A stretch of DNA of 53,208 nucleotides, from contig CALVNG010000007.1 of NCBI GenBank assembly GCA_944349545.1, forward strand, positions 1 through 53,208, given 5' to 3'. This document shows positions 9,762 to 17,514 of this stretch, piece by piece. The notes beneath the pieces are model-generated. The model was not told where the DNA came from. It was given only the letters and a program-made list of their open reading frames with translations, and searched no databases. Every line of letters begins with the position of its first letter. Positions within the stretch are counted from its first letter, which is position 1. Made by a program: the position numbers and the translations under genes. The stretch comes from an uncultured Eubacteriales bacterium (GTDB lineage Bacteria; Bacillota; Clostridia; Christensenellales; Aristaeellaceae).

Positions 9762-11528
9762 TCAGCCGTTGCCTTCCCACAGCCAGCTCTGCGGCACGTA
9801 GCCGGCATCGCCCAGGTCGGTCAGGAGGATGTAAAACTCGTCCTCGACGACGCCTACAACGGAAATGGCCCCCGCCAGCTCCTTTTCCGGCCCTTCGCGC
9901 GGGGCGGAATAGGCGGGCTGGCGATCTTCCAGCTCCAATACATACATCAAGTGCGGGAAAACGGGTTCGACCCCATCCATCTCGCTGCCAAAGGCCAGAT
10001 AGCGCGTCATCATCCATCCCTCCGGCCCGTCCAGCCCCAGCGCGACCCGCGTCCAGTCGCCCTCCTGCCCCAGCACGCTAAGGGGCGTGCCATTGTAGAA
10101 CTTGCCCAGCGATTCGGCGCTTCGGTCCGGCTGCACGCGCAGGTGCAGGCGGTCGGCGGGGTCGGGGTTGCGCACCACCGCCCAGCCGTCGCGGTTCAGG
10201 GCCGCGGCAAGCGCCTCCCTGGTCCCCGGCAGGGTGGTGAGGTCCGCGCCGTCAAGGACCATCTGCGCAAGATCGCCCACAAACATACCGTCGTTCTCCT
10301 CCTTCTGCGGCCATACGGAAAAGCCCCAGAAGCGGCATGAGTACTCAAGGGTTCCCGCTTCGCCAGGAATCCATGCCCATTCGAGCCGCCATTCGCCGTC
10401 GGGGCCGAGCGCATAGCCCGCCTGCGCATGCTGTTCGTCCCAGGAAAAGTTGATCTCGCCGTCCGTTGTGTGGAACAGGTCCAGCGTGGTGTCCGGGGGC
10501 AGCGGGGCGGTCAGGCAGCTCTGGCGGTAGGTCCCGTCGTCGTTCAGGGCGATCACCTGCAGGCGGCGGTCTCCCGCGGCATCCTCCACCAGCAGCACCA
10601 GGCCGCCGGACTGCAAATCGGACACAAGCACCGTGCCCGCGACCGGGAGGCGACCGGTGTCGAGCGCATCGTCCGTCAGAAAAGTATCGCCCCAGCCGCT
10701 GGCGTCGATGAGATCGGAGACCGGCTCCGTCTCCAGCCGGGCCAGCAGCGTTTCCGACAGCGGCACGGGGATGGAATCCACTACGGTTTCGCCCTCCAGC
10801 GTGAACGTGGCGCGGCGGATGGCCAGCATCCCGTCCGAAATGCGCAGGTAGGCCGCATTGACCCCCGTGCCGGAATTGTATGGGTCATAGCTTTGCAGCG
10901 TATAGCCCGCAAAGGCGTCCCGCACGTTTTGCTCCAGCAGCCTCTCCCGCGCCTGCGCCTCCGCGGGCGTGGCGGGGTGCCACCTGAAATCCCCGATCCA
11001 GGAATGCAGCCCGTCTCCCGCGGCCACGCTCGCTACGGGCTGGGCGCCGCCCTCGTAATAGCTCAGCCGCGTGCCCTGTACGATCACCTCGCCGGGATAG
11101 CGCTGGGGATCATACCAGCCGCAGATTGAAAACCACTGCCCGTCGTAGCGGTAGGAAAGCCGCGAGCCGTCCTCGCTGACGATGTCAAAGCCCAGATCGT
11201 CCGGCCATGCGGAGCCGTCCGCGCGGGACTGCCCCTGCCGGTGGCGCTCAAAGCGCAGGTCCGCATGACCTTCCATGGCCGAGCCGGAGGAAAAGTTGCT
11301 CCACGCGCCGTCCTTTCGGAGAAAGCCGTACAGGCTCCAATCGTTCAGCAAAAAGGCGTAGGCACTGCCGTCCGGCAGATCAAACAGCAGAGAATCCCAG
11401 GATTCGTTTTCATAGCCGCGTTCCGCCATCCAGCGGAGGATATCTTCGGGTACCTCCTGCGCGCGGGCGCAGGGAAGCGTGCAGGTCAGGGCGATGACCA
11501 GCGCCAGCGCGGCGAGCGTTCGTTTCAT
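9762..11528 (-). CDS. Secreted SH3-like domain protein, longer paralog
   Basis: Exported protein of 588 residues with a signal peptide (about 1-23). About 170 extra N-terminal residues (SWDSLLFDLPDGSAY, SYRYDGQWFSI) are absent from the downstream paralog and look like a beta-rich domain of their own. The rest aligns with the protein at 8496-9743, including the SH3-like part (LHLRVQPDRSAESLGKFYNG, GWMMTRYLAFG). It is the first gene of a two-gene operon. The ligand is unknown; cell-envelope binding is an inference from secretion and the SH3-like fold. Confidence 0.8.
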   Translation of the reverse strand: MKRTLAALALVIALTCTLPCARAQEVPEDILRWMAERGYENESWDSLLFDLPDGSAYAFLLNDWSLYGFLRKDGAWSNFSSGSAMEGHADLRFERHRQGQSRADGSAWPDDLGFDIVSEDGSRLSYRYDGQWFSICGWYDPQRYPGEVIVQGTRLSYYEGGAQPVASVAAGDGLHSWIGDFRWHPATPAEAQARERLLEQNVRDAFAGYTLQSYDPYNSGTGVNAAYLRISDGMLAIRRATFTLEGETVVDSIPVPLSETLLARLETEPVSDLIDASGWGDTFLTDDALDTGRLPVAGTVLVSDLQSGGLVLLVEDAAGDRRLQVIALNDDGTYRQSCLTAPLPPDTTLDLFHTTDGEINFSWDEQHAQAGYALGPDGEWRLEWAWIPGEAGTLEYSCRFWGFSVWPQKEENDGMFVGDLAQMVLDGADLTTLPGTREALAAALNRDGWAVVRNPDPADRLHLRVQPDRSAESLGKFYNGTPLSVLGQEGDWTRVALGLDGPEGWMMTRYLAFGSEMDGVEPVFPHLMYVLELEDRQPAYSAPREGPEKELAGAISVVGVVEDEFYILLTDLGDAGYVPQSWLWEGNG

Positions 11529-11591
11529 CGGAACAATCCCCCTTTGCCCATATAACGGGCGGAGATGGGAATCCCTTCCGGGACCCGAAAC

Positions 11592-11620
11592 AAAAGCACC
11601 CGGCCCCTTTACAGGCCGGG
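11592..11620 (-). terminator. Terminator after glmM
   Basis: Stem GGCCGGG/CCCGGCC (11614-11620 with 11599-11605), followed on the minus strand by TGC and TTTTG. It lies about 20 bp past the glmM stop. Confidence 0.75.
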
Positions 11621-11640
11621 CAAATCATGTTCGCGGGCGT

Positions 11641-12993
11641 TCAGCCGCGCAGCTCGTGCTCGATGAGTTTGCTCAGGGCGTAAACGTCGCGGTCCATCTC
11701 CCGCTGGTCGGGGCCCTCGATCATCACGCGCACGCGCGGCTCGGTGCCGCTGGCGCGCACCACCAGGCGGCCCTTGTCCTTGTATTTTCGCTCCAGCTCC
11801 GCGATCTTCTGCATGATCTTCTCGTTCTTGTCAAAGTCATATTTCTTTTTGTCATCCACGTTGGCGGCATACTGGCTCTGGGGCATCATCTGCATCACCC
11901 CGGCCAGGCGGCTCAGGGGGCGCTGCGCCTGCACCATCGCGCTGATCACCTGTACGGCGGTGATCAGACCGTCGCCGGTGGTGTTGTAATCCAGCAGAAT
12001 GACGTGGCCGCTCTGCTCGCCGCCCAGCACATAGCCGTCAGCCAGCATCTTTTCCAGCACATAGCGGTCGCCTACGCGGGTCTTTTCAATTTTGACGCCA
12101 TGCTTTTTCATGGCGATGTCCAACCCCATGTTGCTCATGACCGTGGCGACGATGGTGTTTTGCCGAAGCCGTCCCTGCTCCTTGAGATGGAGGGCCAGCA
12201 TGGCCATCACCTGGTCGCCGTTGATGAGCTGGCCGCGTTCATCCACAGCCATCAGGCGGTCGGCGTCGCCATCGAAGGCGAAGCCTACGTCCGCGCCCAG
12301 CTCGCGCACCAGCTCGCACAGACGGCGCGGATGGGTGGAACCGCAGTTGTCGTTGATGTTGGTGCCGTCAGGCTCATGGTAGTAGCAGCTCACCTTCGCG
12401 CCCAGCTCCTTGAACACCATGGGCGCGACCTCGTAGCTGGCGCCCTGGGCGCAGTCCAGCACCACATGCAGACCGTCCAGCCGCACATTGGTGGTTTCCT
12501 TGACAAAGTCCACATAGCGGCGGGTGGCGTTGCGCTGGCGCACGGGACGGCCCACGCGCTCGCCGATGGGCATTTCAAAATCGGTAGGCATGCCGCCGGT
12601 CACGATTTCCTCGATGCGGTCCTCAATGGCGTCGGGCAGCTTATAGCCGTCTTTGTCAAAGAACTTGATGCCGTTGTACTCGACGGTGTTGTGGCTGGCG
12701 CTGATGACCGCGCCCGCATCCGCCTCGTAAAAGCGGGTCAGGTAAGCGATGGCGGGCGTGGGCAGCACCTCCACCAGCACTGCGCGCGCGCCCACGCTGC
12801 AAATGCCGGCGACCAGCGCGCTTTCCAGCATCTCACCGCTCAGGCGCGTATCGCGCCCCACGAGGATGGTGGGACGGTGCACGTCGCTGGCCAGCACATA
12901 GGCGCTGGCCTGCCCCAGGCGAAAGGCAAGGTCGCAGGAGAGTTCCGTGTTGGCGATGCCGCGCACGCCGTCGGTTCCGAACAGTCTGGCCAT
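11641..12993 (-). CDS. glmM: Phosphoglucosamine mutase
   Basis: Converts glucosamine-6-phosphate to glucosamine-1-phosphate on the way to UDP-GlcNAc and peptidoglycan. The 450-residue length is typical. Visible motifs are the N-terminal FGTDGVRG, the phosphoserine loop ISASHN (S100), the metal-binding DGDADR and the C-terminal phosphate-binding RASGTEPRVRVM. The ATG has AAGGAG 7 nt upstream. It lies 21 bp downstream of the isomerase-like gene and is probably cotranscribed with it. Confidence 0.97.
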   Translation of the reverse strand: MARLFGTDGVRGIANTELSCDLAFRLGQASAYVLASDVHRPTILVGRDTRLSGEMLESALVAGICSVGARAVLVEVLPTPAIAYLTRFYEADAGAVISASHNTVEYNGIKFFDKDGYKLPDAIEDRIEEIVTGGMPTDFEMPIGERVGRPVRQRNATRRYVDFVKETTNVRLDGLHVVLDCAQGASYEVAPMVFKELGAKVSCYYHEPDGTNINDNCGSTHPRRLCELVRELGADVGFAFDGDADRLMAVDERGQLINGDQVMAMLALHLKEQGRLRQNTIVATVMSNMGLDIAMKKHGVKIEKTRVGDRYVLEKMLADGYVLGGEQSGHVILLDYNTTGDGLITAVQVISAMVQAQRPLSRLAGVMQMMPQSQYAANVDDKKKYDFDKNEKIMQKIAELERKYKDKGRLVVRASGTEPRVRVMIEGPDQREMDRDVYALSKLIEHELRG

Positions 12994-13983: not shown

Positions 13984-14066
13984 GAGGGTTGGCACTCCTT
14001 TTGTCCGGCAGGGGGGGGACGCCCTCCGCCGGTTCAGTTGTAGCATATTGTATCTTGGCCGTGGAT

Positions 14067-14095
14067 AGTATACCCCGATCAGGGGAAAATTGCAA
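14067..14095 (-). promoter_or_regulatory. Promoter of the isomerase-glmM operon
   Basis: On the minus strand TTGCAA (14095-14090) and TATACT (14072-14067) have a 17-bp spacer. The spacer contains the near-palindrome CCCCTGATCGGGG, a possible operator. Confidence 0.75.
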
Positions 14096-14139
14096 GCCTG
14101 CGAAAACGAAGGCGGGTTCTCAAGTCCGCAGCGTATGGA

Positions 14140-14174
14140 AAAACGCAACGGGCCACGCCTGCCCGTTGCGTTTT
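14140..14174. terminator. Terminator after the anti-sigma gene
   Basis: A 14-bp perfect stem (14140-14153 with 14161-14174) with a 7-nt loop and T-runs on both sides. It lies about 170 bp past the minus-strand anti-sigma gene; the stretch between holds no credible gene. Confidence 0.75.
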
Positions 14175-14345
14175 CGGGGAGTCCAATCAAGCGCTGCACG
14201 AGATGAGAAAAACAATGGCATGGGGCCAAGCGCGATGATACTTTGGCTGTCGGATGCATCGGCCCCGGCTCCTTCCCAGAGACAAACGGCGTACAGGGCC
14301 AGAGGGCGGGCAAGGCCCGCACAGCCGCCCGGCGCCGGCATGCCG

Positions 14346-15530
14346 TCAGCGCACGCGCACGGCGGCGGTCATGTCGGCTGCGCCGCCTTCGACGGGGGCC
14401 AGCCACAATTCGTCGGGCAGTGGAGACAGGGCGGGATAGATGAATTCGGCCGTTTCGTTGCCGTGGGCGTCAAGCGCAAACTCCCCCGGGAACAGCTCCA
14501 CGCCCTCACCGTCCACCAGCGACAGGCTGTAGAGCCAGCCTTCAAACACATCCGTGCCGCCGTAGGGCCACATAAGCCGCCCCTCTTCGTCGTAATAGCC
14601 GTCGCCGTTGGCCTCGATGAAGGCGGCCATCGCGTCGGGGTTGACCTCCAGGTCCAGCGTGATGTAGGTCATCAGGGGCGAGAAGCAGGCCTCGGTCACC
14701 TGGGCGGTCACAAGGTCCGTCGCGACGGGGATGCACGGATGCTCGGTCACCACGCGGTCCGCCATGCCGGTCACGTCCAGCGTAAAGGTGATGACACCCT
14801 CGTCGGGCAGGCGCATGCGCATGTTTTCGTCAAAGATTTCCGGGTGCTCGGAAGGCGGATAGAAGCCCTCCGGCGGCGGCCCGATGGGCAAGGCAACTTC
14901 CACCTTGCCCTCCAGGAACACATCGTCCTTATCCAGCCGCAGGTAGAAATATTCCTCGATGACGCCCGGCTCGGCGGTGCCGGTGGTCATCCCGCCGGAA
15001 CCTGCGGTGGTCATGTCCGCCTCCCTGCCGTCAAACCAGATGCGCTCGGTCCACAGCCGCATGTCATACTTTTGCAACAGTTGCGAGATTTCCTCGGTAA
15101 GTCCCGGCAATGGCGTGCCGTCCTCGGCCACGCCCAGCGGCACGTCCACGTCCGGCAGGCGGTAGGTCCACATCAGGTAGAGGGTGCGGCCATCGTAGGC
15201 GGCCTCGTTGACGGCAACCTCCACGCCGTTGATCGTTCCCTCAAACAGATGGGCCTGCCGGGCAACCCCTTCGCTGGCGGGCGGGGTGTTGAAGAACCAA
15301 AGCGCGTCAAACAGCTTCCAGTGATAGGCGGCCACGGCGGCCGAGGCCAGCAGCAGCGTGACGAGGGCGGCGATGAGCAGCGTGCGCCGCAGCTTTCGCG
15401 CCGAGGCCGCGCGGCGCCTGCCATCCTCCCGCACGATGGTTTTCAGCGTATCGGTCATGGCGCGGTGGAAAACCTCCGGCGCGTCCGGCAAAGCCTGGTT
15501 CAGACGGTTGCGAAACTCACGATCGTTCAT
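14346..15530 (-). CDS. Membrane anti-sigma factor-like protein (DUF4179-like)
   Basis: Single-pass membrane protein of 394 residues. An N-terminal cytoplasmic part of about 48 residues (MNDREFRNRLNQALPDAPEVF) would bind the sigma factor, then a transmembrane helix (about 50-68), then a large extracytoplasmic beta-rich domain that resembles the DUF4179 sensor domain. It overlaps the ECF sigma gene by 4 bp (ATGA), the standard arrangement of a sigma/anti-sigma pair. The signal sensed is unknown. I see no protease-cleavage motif that would identify the release mechanism. Confidence 0.82.
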   Translation of the reverse strand: MNDREFRNRLNQALPDAPEVFHRAMTDTLKTIVREDGRRRAASARKLRRTLLIAALVTLLLASAAVAAYHWKLFDALWFFNTPPASEGVARQAHLFEGTINGVEVAVNEAAYDGRTLYLMWTYRLPDVDVPLGVAEDGTPLPGLTEEISQLLQKYDMRLWTERIWFDGREADMTTAGSGGMTTGTAEPGVIEEYFYLRLDKDDVFLEGKVEVALPIGPPPEGFYPPSEHPEIFDENMRMRLPDEGVITFTLDVTGMADRVVTEHPCIPVATDLVTAQVTEACFSPLMTYITLDLEVNPDAMAAFIEANGDGYYDEEGRLMWPYGGTDVFEGWLYSLSLVDGEGVELFPGEFALDAHGNETAEFIYPALSPLPDELWLAPVEGGAADMTAAVRVR

Positions 15531-16012
15531 TGCTCACCCTCCTCCCAGTCCTCGCGGAGCAGGACGCTCAGGCGGGCGCGCGCTTTCATCAGGCGCGTCT
15601 TGACCGTGCCCTGCGGCACGCCCAGCGTATCGGCAATCTCGGCGACGGAGAATCCTTCCAGATAGTACAAAAGCACGGTGATGCGCCATTCGGGCCGGAG
15701 CAGGTCGATGCATTCCCTGAGCGGCAGAGGCTCCTCGGGCGACTCCGTGGGAAGAATCTCCTCCTCCAGCGGAACAAAGCGGATCTTCTGGCGCTGGCGC
15801 AGCATGTCGCGGCAGGTATTGACCAGAATTTTCATCAGCCAGGGGCGGAAACGCGATTGAATTCGCAGGGTGTGTTGCTTCTGCCACGCGCGGGTGAGCG
15901 CTTCCTGCACGGCGTCGGCGCAATCCTGATCGTTGTGCAGGATGGAGTAGCCCACGTGGTACATCAGCCGTTCGCAGCGCATGGCTTCCGCCTGAAACGT
16001 TACGGCATCCAC
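15527..16012 (-). CDS. ECF-type RNA polymerase sigma factor
   Basis: Extracytoplasmic-function sigma factor of 161 residues. Region 2 (YHVGYSILHNDQDCADAVQEAL, with RFRPWLMKILVNTCRDMLR) and region 4 (PEWRITVLLYYLEGFSVAEI and VPQGTVKTRLMKAR) are both present, separated by the usual short linker. The start is GTG, with AAAGGAG about 8 nt upstream; an ATG two bases earlier is out of frame. Its partner anti-sigma gene overlaps its stop. A possible autoregulated ECF promoter lies upstream. Confidence 0.92.
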   Translation of the reverse strand: MDAVTFQAEAMRCERLMYHVGYSILHNDQDCADAVQEALTRAWQKQHTLRIQSRFRPWLMKILVNTCRDMLRQRQKIRFVPLEEEILPTESPEEPLPLRECIDLLRPEWRITVLLYYLEGFSVAEIADTLGVPQGTVKTRLMKARARLSVLLREDWEEGEQ

Positions 16013-16166: not shown

Positions 16167-16922
16167 CTAACCACGATCGCATCCGCCGGCGCACACGAGC
16201 ACCTCAATGACCTGCCAGGGCAGCATGTGAGGGCCGAAGGCCCGCAGCAGGCGTTCCATCTGGACGGCTCCGCGCACACGCGCGGCGCGTATTTCGCGCC
16301 CCGCCAGGGAGAAACAAGCCGTCTCCACGCCCGCGAAGCCGCGTTCCGGCACAAAGGGCGGGAGGGAGGAGCAGCCCGCGCGCAGAAAGACACGCTCCAG
16401 CCATCCGGGGCCGCCGGGAGCGCACGGGGCGCCGCGCACAGGGCGCACGCCGCCCCGCATCAGTCGCAGGGCGGCCTCGCGCACGGTCAGCGCTTCCGTC
16501 CGGCCCTCGCGGGCCAGAAAAGCCTTTTGCGCTTCGCAGCCGACCACGGCCACGCGCGCCGCGTACGGCGCGGGGGGAGCGGGAGAGAAATAGCCCGCAA
16601 GCTGCGGAAAACGGCGCAACACGTCGCGCCGCCAGCGCGGGCAGGCATGGAGGAACCAGGGCAGACGCCCTTCGTCCAGGCGGGCGAGCAGCTCGGCAGC
16701 GTCCGCTTCGATGGGGCCGTCCGGTGCGTCCGGACCCTCCACGCGCGATGCGCCCAGCAGACCCAGCGCGCGGTCCAGCTGGCCATCCTCCAGCCCGAAG
16801 CGCTCGCACAGCGCGCTTCGCGCCTGACGGGTCAGCACAAAAACAGCCGTCCCCGACGGCCTGCGCTGGGCCGGGCGCGACTTGCAGGCGCGCAAAACGG
16901 GAGACGGCTGAATCCGCGTCAT
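16167..16922 (-). CDS. Minimal stand-alone [FeFe]-hydrogenase H-domain-like protein
   Basis: A 251-residue protein that looks like the large-subunit C-terminal domain of iron-only hydrogenases, without ferredoxin-like N-terminal modules. The order matches: VFVLTRQARSALCERFG; the L1 region LHACPRW (C94); the L2 region VVGCEAQK (C129) followed by ALTVREAALRLM; and the L3 region IEVLVCAGGC (C244, C248). All four Cys positions that ligate the H-cluster in CpI are kept, but the neighbouring proton-transfer Cys is Ala, the Lys of PCTAK is Gln, and the protein ends right after GGCDRG. Catalytic hydrogenase activity is therefore doubtful; a sensory or degenerate role is an inference. The ATG has GGAGG 9 nt upstream. 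Confidence 0.75.
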   Translation of the reverse strand: MTRIQPSPVLRACKSRPAQRRPSGTAVFVLTRQARSALCERFGLEDGQLDRALGLLGASRVEGPDAPDGPIEADAAELLARLDEGRLPWFLHACPRWRRDVLRRFPQLAGYFSPAPPAPYAARVAVVGCEAQKAFLAREGRTEALTVREAALRLMRGGVRPVRGAPCAPGGPGWLERVFLRAGCSSLPPFVPERGFAGVETACFSLAGREIRAARVRGAVQMERLLRAFGPHMLPWQVIEVLVCAGGCDRG

Positions 16923-16999
16923 CAGGAAAAACCTCCTTCGCCACAGCGGGGGATATTCCTGTGATACCCGATTGCGGACGGTTTGAAACCGCCTGAGGA

Positions 17000-17449
17000 T
17001 TATTCGAGGGATTCGCCGCGGTCCAGGCGGTCGATCATGCCCACGCGGCGCGCGTGGCGCTCGCCCTCAAAGGCGGTCATCAGCCAGATGCGCACGATGT
17101 CCTTGGCAAGCTCGCTGCCCAGCACCCTTGCGCCCAGCGCCAGCATGTTGGCGTTGTTGTGCAGGCGGCTCATCTTGGCGGAATAGGTATCCGAGCAGGT
17201 AACGCAGCGGATGCCGTGCACCTTGCTCGCCGCCATGCCGATGCCCACGCCCGTGCCGCACATGACGATGCCCATGCTGCATTCGCCGCTGGCGACGGCG
17301 TTGGCGGCGCGCGCGCCGTAGATGGGGTAATCCACGCTTTCGTGGCTGTTGGTGCCAAAGTCCTTGTAGGGGATGCCCAGCTCGTCCAGAACGGCGATAA
17401 CGTGCGGCTTGAGGTCGATGCCGGCGTGGTCACAGGCGATGGCGATCAT
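17000..17449 (-). CDS. rpiB: Ribose-5-phosphate isomerase B
   Basis: Interconverts ribose-5-phosphate and ribulose-5-phosphate in the pentose phosphate pathway. The 149-residue length is the family norm. The start IAIACDHAG, the catalytic-cysteine segment MCGTGVGIGMAASK, RCVTCSDTYSAKMSRLHNNANMLALG and the C-terminal FEGERHARRVGMID are all diagnostic. The ATG has AAGGAGG about 10 nt upstream. It has its own promoter and is divergent from the solute-binding-like gene. Confidence 0.97.
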   Translation of the reverse strand: MIAIACDHAGIDLKPHVIAVLDELGIPYKDFGTNSHESVDYPIYGARAANAVASGECSMGIVMCGTGVGIGMAASKVHGIRCVTCSDTYSAKMSRLHNNANMLALGARVLGSELAKDIVRIWLMTAFEGERHARRVGMIDRLDRGESLE

Positions 17450-17485: not shown

Positions 17486-17514
17486 AGTATAGCATGTTTG
17501 AGGCCCAAGGTCCA
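17486..17514 (-). promoter_or_regulatory. Promoter of rpiB
   Basis: On the minus strand TGGACC (17514-17509) and TATACT (17491-17486) with a 17-bp spacer; the -35 matches only 4 of 6. Confidence 0.55.

Follow-up and report, generated by a model that had tools for sequence, protein, structure and literature searches.

A reduced [FeFe]-hydrogenase H-domain of 251 aa is encoded on the minus strand at 16167-16922 of the window, by which we mean the whole stretch of 53,208 nucleotides that was analyzed. We refer to its product as the mini protein. The reading that we favor, with a probability of roughly 0.6, is that this protein is a cubane-only H-domain that serves as a redox- or oxygen-labile switch or as a cluster-handling protein, and that it most likely does not act as a hydrogenase or as a sensor of H2 or CO. 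The evidence that carries this reading comes from the ligand cysteines, the diiron pocket, the maturases of the H-cluster and the pattern of constraint on the gene.

The mini gene, its neighborhood and its relatives

The gene begins with an ATG at 16922 and its stop codon ends at 16167; a ribosome-binding site, AAGGAGG, can be read in the sequence on the same strand at 16932-16938, 9 bases before the ATG. A Pfam search, which had been named as a check in a preliminary description of this DNA, matched the protein to PF02906 with 38.9 bits (E 9.6e-10), above the cut-off of 22.1. No other domain passed its Pfam cut-off (a QCR10 match fell below its own), and neither a PAS domain nor extra Fe-S modules were found in this search. 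The score against TIGR02512, the NCBIfam model for group A hydrogenases, was 51.6 bits, far under the cut-off of 405.95. With phmmer, 34 distinct sequences in the PDB were matched at E <= 1 and all 34 are named hydrogenase subunits, the top match being HydA1 of 8a6t (6.8e-11). A profile of the four homologs described below aligned to HydA1 over profile positions 5-254 (E 1.4e-27), and its comparison with nine HydA H-domains using hhalign gave a probability of 99.6 over 250 columns. These results confirm that the mini gene is a real gene for a reduced H-domain, one that has the four ligand cysteines and is without ferredoxin modules, as the preliminary description had proposed. Its statement that the protein follows the H-domain from end to end was too strong. 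Ligand 2 follows ligand 1 at a spacing of 35 residues, compared with 55 in a HydA of the family (L019), with about 20 residues missing; the spacing from ligand 2 to ligand 3 is 115, compared with 122 in the Candidatus Limiplasma pullicola homolog and 139 in the same HydA (about 24 missing); and the chain stops 3 residues past C248, ending in DRG. The plus-strand reading of 16167-16922 gave zero Pfam family matches and was rejected.

The gene had also been said to stand alone between an ECF sigma factor pair and rpiB. It lies instead 77 bases downstream of rpiB and in the same direction. The rpiB gene (ribose-5-phosphate isomerase B; PF02502, 191.8 bits) occupies 17000-17449 of the minus strand, no terminator-like site was found between the two genes, and a promoter-like site precedes rpiB at 17486-17514 on the minus strand, where a consensus match is the sole basis for the assignment (1 found, against a mean of 0.1 in shuffles). 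The order rpiB then mini gene occurs in all three close members, and two divergent genes before rpiB are common to their loci. A gene for rpiB is present in 16 of the 17 genomes of the genus (E <= 1e-30) and is followed by the mini gene in 3. Among the 13 rpiB loci without a mini gene, the 11 that have 1.5 kb of downstream sequence contain no related ORF of at least 70 aa there; the other two have short downstream sequence (454 bases in G008 and 59 bases in G005).

On the other side of the mini gene, genes for an ECF sigma factor and a DUF4179-like protein (14346-16012, minus strand; the latter scores 20.6 bits against DUF4179, short of the Pfam cut-off of 30.1) are neighbors that were judged to lie outside the feature. 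The sigma factor adjoins the mini gene in two genomes, and neither of the pair has a match in the corresponding contig of G003 (L080). Positions 14027-15976 are 98-100% identical to L. pullicola in 150-base steps, compared with 74-97% in the adjoining stretches, and dS is 0.01-0.02 in this segment versus 0.25-0.56 elsewhere. The segment was exchanged recently between the two species, so that the position of the sigma factor says little about the function of the mini protein, and on this ground the idea that the ECF sigma pair is functionally tied to it was rejected. The survey of neighboring genes that had been suggested thus bore out the linkage to rpiB, but not that to the sigma factor, which is not a conserved neighbor. 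A second tract, 11027-12676, is also 98-100% identical to L. pullicola; it covers most of a phosphoglucosamine mutase-like ORF (named by eye) and is separated from the first by diverged sequence.

The source genome (G000) is 2.57 Mb in size and 93.1% complete, and 17 genomes of its genus were compared. The nearest named record is Candidatus Limiplasma pullicola (L023, counted once with G006). Its mini gene (80% identity), that of genome G003 (L010; 41% identity) and the source gene form a close clade of three. A fourth homolog, L025 of genome G012, has 286 aa and 32% identity; it is not linked to rpiB and adjoins a glutamyl-tRNA synthetase-type gene. Trees group the four minis with support of 99-100, but their branches are long and the grouping was flagged as a possible artifact of long-branch attraction; once the other minis are removed, L025 is just a very long branch. 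Searching the 17 genus genomes with the mini profile, with all candidates scored, found the three close members and L025. In 300 genomes of the family (at most eight candidates scored per genome) the profile placed only the same three above regular HydA among the matches listed and missed L025. With L025 as the query against 308 family genomes, itself and regular HydA were found among the matches listed, and the source protein found only itself at 1e-8 in 396 genomes of the order (at most six candidates scored per genome; G003 and G006 presumably not sampled). Because the wider searches scored part of the candidates and missed L025 once, further members may be overlooked; the known close members are three, all from one Clostridia genus.

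Eight rows with short frames were also inspected. None has mini-type features, 6 run off the end of a contig, and all 8 have PCxAKK or CPGGC then GGGQ, like regular HydA. One of the eight, an internal frame of 232 aa on contig G010:C43 (L014, L145), encodes no more than the C-terminal half of the H-domain of a HydA (PCKAKK, CPGGC) and follows a NuoE-like frame (named by eye). Viral contigs scanned for a deeper alignment yielded one partial HydA (L137), which was excluded from the alignment. No report of the mini protein was found in the open-access PMC literature, as judged from listings and abstract openings, and no paper there was found to contain both 'Limiplasma' and 'hydrogenase'.

Ligand cysteines and the diiron pocket

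By alignment, C94, C129, C244 and C248 of the mini protein are the equivalents of C300, C355, C499 and C503 of CpI, the last being the bridging cysteine of true H-clusters; their codons lie on the minus strand at 16641-16643, 16536-16538, 16191-16193 and 16179-16181, respectively. CpI numbers other than C299, M353, M497, E279, E282 and S319 are those that we take to apply. These six follow PMC10055695. Each of the three close-clade members retains all four ligand cysteines, and the ligand columns are the only cysteine columns that the three have in common. When L025 is included, 27 alignment columns have a cysteine in at least one member and 4 are invariant, again the ligand columns, with the fourth cysteine of L025 paired only through a two-residue gap. 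Of the nine cysteines of the source protein, L010 keeps all 4 ligands and none of the 5 others, which by our own arithmetic is a 1-in-126 outcome under random cysteine retention. Only two cysteines, C12 and C39, are N-terminal to C94; C39, not a ligand, is also found in L023 and L025. L025 has three cysteines in register, while its chain end, CACCG, has CxCC replacing CxxxC and the fourth cysteine shifted. Conservation of the four cysteines among homologs, a check raised in the preliminary description, therefore held throughout the close clade but not in the last motif of the distant homolog.

AlphaFold models were made from shallow alignments with the source protein and L023 as sole sequences. 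The model of the source protein has a mean pLDDT of 39.0 and a pTM of 0.29, and that of L023 has values of 46.1 and 0.38. Foldseek found no matches at E <= 0.001 for the former; for the latter, all 12 matches at this threshold are [FeFe]-hydrogenases (best 1.4e-5), with TM at most 0.27 and an rmsd of about 22 A, so that these matches reflect sequence more than shared geometry. Because the models are of low confidence, it is from homology by itself that the four cysteines would be expected to converge on one site.

For the diiron pocket, the four minis were aligned with eight other H-domains, three of which are sensor types of the source genome. Taking the minis in the order source, L023, L010 and L025, the K358 position has Q, Q, Q and H; the M497 position L, L, L and Y; the C299 position A, A, L and S; the S323 position P, P, a gap and P; and the P231 position R, R, P and P. 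The P354 position is G and the M353 position V in all four, the Q325 position is D in L025 and missing from the other three, and GGGQP is found in none of the four in this alignment. Every position of the catalytic pocket test (C299, M353, P354, K358, M497 and GGGQP) is thus changed or deleted in the source protein, and the replacement of the proton-donor Cys by Ala and of the Lys of PCTAK by Gln, noted earlier, is borne out by the C299 and K358 columns. Both K358 and P354 are retained in all eight other H-domains, the three sensor types included. Variation at C299, M353, M497 and GGGQP occurs also in one or more of these sensor types, so what sets the minis apart is only the loss of the Lys and of the Pro, together with the deletions. 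As described in PMC10055695, a catalytic enzyme with the M497L change is without a properly integrated [2Fe] cluster, and a sensory enzyme with Ser at this position takes up [2Fe]. The E279/E282 positions are D/E in the source protein and L023, E/K in L010 and E/E in L025; with these partly kept, the minis seem to retain part of the proton path. The earlier suggestion of selection for cluster binding without hydrogen turnover is supported by the shared cysteine columns being those of the ligands, together with the loss of the Lys and the Pro in all four minis.

Maturases, constraint and probable function

The HydE and HydG models each matched in 3 of the 17 genus genomes, the same three in both cases (G004, G005 and G013), and neither was found in the four genomes that carry a mini gene (the source genome, G003, G006 and G012; 93-95% complete). 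The chance that all four carriers would miss such a locus via incompleteness is about 1e-5, taking rounded completeness values and assuming independence. HydF was searched for in the source genome only, where none of 11 matches was above the cut-off and the best covers model positions 8-166 of 392. Among 308 genomes of the family, 44 have HydG at E <= 1e-50, 43 of them above the cut-off. According to a review, the three maturases are found in all microorganisms with [FeFe]-hydrogenase (PMC6212873). The genome check for hydE, hydF and hydG thus came out negative, and the failure to find HydE and HydG in the carriers makes a complete H-cluster in the mini protein very unlikely. Clusters of HydE, HydG and a HydF-like GTPase (by eye) are present in three genus genomes (L134, L135 and L136), and a motif scan of 9-13 kb found no H-domain genes beside them.

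Between the source gene and L. pullicola L023, substitutions by codon position number 38/22/81, with dS 0.556, dN 0.118 and a dN/dS of 0.213; this and the other ratios for the two genomes were obtained by simple counting on a single close pair. By residues, dN/dS is 0.109 (27-90), 0.107 (90-135), 0.258 (136-190) and 0.12 (190-251), and it is 1.12 in the tail (1-26). The same genome pair gives 0.048 for rpiB, 0.108 for the TIM-barrel gene, 0.077 for the Myb-like gene and 0.242 for the divergent gene at 17.6-18.7 kb, while the values of 0.156 for the sigma factor and 0.437 for the DUF4179 gene derive from too few differences for a useful ratio. Against L010 the ratio is 0.61 for the source gene and 0.558 for L023, at dS values above 1, a range that the method does not handle reliably. 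The mini gene is constrained, but less so than rpiB, the TIM-barrel gene and the Myb-like gene.

In the reading that we favor, the housekeeping Fe-S machinery would load one [4Fe-4S] cluster on C94, C129, C244 and C248. The diiron unit could probably not be made by the host, given that HydE and HydG were not found, and at the level of sequence its pocket has lost key positions in this protein. The product, probably made from the rpiB transcript, would be a cubane-only protein akin to the site-1 part of eukaryotic Nar1; with no relay cluster, it could pass electrons or clusters only by contact with a partner. Its most likely job would be that of a redox- or oxygen-labile switch or of cluster handling, exerted through such direct contact. 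More tentatively, it may be a bacterial counterpart of Nar1, namely the H-domain of a maturation-less lineage that was pared down to the cubane site and co-opted as a switch or Fe-S handler tied to rpiB, which we regard as possible if somewhat unlikely. Nar1 (CIAO3/IOP1), the nearest model for how the mini protein may work and compared here by its published description, has an H-domain and four site-1 cysteines; this site is a homolog of the cubane site, and the maturases are absent from yeast and human (PMC12621388). The second site of Nar1 (four ferredoxin-like cysteines at the N-terminus) and its C-terminal Trp are absent in the mini protein, which is therefore not a Nar1; it is bacterial, and its reduction is likely independent of that of eukaryotic Nar1.

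Nar1 has also been found with [2Fe-2S] besides [4Fe-4S] (PMC12621388). This, and the CxCC end of L025, would suit a protein whose four cysteines hold another metal or cluster, such as zinc or [2Fe-2S], or merely stabilize the fold, but we think this unlikely given that each of the four lies in sequence surroundings that match the H-domain cubane site. If the gene were instead a decaying, functionless remnant of a HydA gene, its fast evolution (41% identity within the genus), loss of segments and narrow distribution would be readily explained, as would a dN/dS above that of rpiB, the elevated ratio of the middle region and the ratio of 0.61 against L010, though the last is affected by the high dS. 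Decay is nevertheless distinctly unlikely when the frame is open in three genomes, in the same place after rpiB, with a bias by codon position, a dN/dS of about 0.11 in the cysteine regions and selective retention of the four cysteines. Least probable by far is that the protein senses H2 or CO as a group C/D-like sensory [FeFe]-hydrogenase whose H-cluster is complete. Ala at the C299 position is found in about 43% of sensory enzymes (PMC10055695), the M353 and M497 positions vary in sensor types too, and an ECF sigma factor adjoins the gene in two genomes; yet the sigma segment reflects a recent exchange and is without a match beside the mini gene in G003, the protein has no PAS or extra Fe-S module, and neither HydE nor HydG was found. 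Moreover, in the source genome all three sensor-type H-domains keep the Lys and the Pro that the mini protein has lost. Gas sensing with an H-cluster, which the preliminary description had offered as an example of a function, is disfavored by this evidence, with positions of the diiron pocket lost or deleted and the two maturases not found in any of the four carriers.

H-domain proteins of known systems and of this group

Minimal archaeal [FeFe]-hydrogenases consist of an H-domain only and have a functional H-cluster. Group A (A6-type) HydA, such as T. kivui HydA1 (8a6t), and likewise CpI share H-domain homology and the four cubane cysteines with the mini protein. In contrast to group A HydA, the mini protein has no F-clusters, no NuoG-like N-terminus, no C299 and no tail past the last cysteine; its domain is shortened, and the Lys and Pro at ligand 2 are lost. 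HydS (group C/D) resembles it in having Ala at the proton-donor position, but the mini protein lacks the PAS domain, the extra clusters and the Lys of PCxAK, and its genome yielded no HydE or HydG. The HydA of the bifurcating NiFe-HydABCSL is described as a HydA homolog that lost the H-cluster (PMC9304861); it has five Fe-S clusters and belongs to a large complex, whereas the mini protein is a reduced H-domain only. If our favored reading is true, the mini protein shows what remains of the hydrogenase fold once the catalytic iron pair is unavailable, in bacteria rather than in eukaryotes, and would offer a minimal system in which to study what the cubane half of an H-domain is capable of by itself. 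In this group, hydrogen metabolism would then not necessarily follow from an H-domain match, even where a long HydA exceeds a hydrogenase cut-off.

The source genome, in which HydE and HydG were not found, encodes a HydA (L001; contig G000:C22, L081:4770-6512, minus strand) with NuoF-like (HydB) and NuoE-like (HydC) genes. This HydA passes the cut-off of the NCBI model 'NADH-dependent [FeFe] hydrogenase, group A6' (915.5 vs 765) and has the motif TSCSPGW, with Ser replacing the cubane ligand C300. The Ser-for-C300 motif is found in 59 of 68 HydA locus rows, which are top matches to mini queries with two genes counted twice, 7 of the 68 coming from genomes outside the HydG search. A motif of the TSCSPGW type was noted in Melainabacteria in 2013 (PMC3787301). 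Since the Ser motif occurs in 7 of the 8 rows of HydG-positive genomes, and CC-type rows occur without HydG, the presence of the motif is not closely tied to the loss of the maturases. The source genome also encodes three sensor-type H-domain proteins, on contigs G000:C58 (L003 and L004) and G000:C30 (L005), in which K358 is kept; these have Fer4 modules, with FeS in two and PAS in one.
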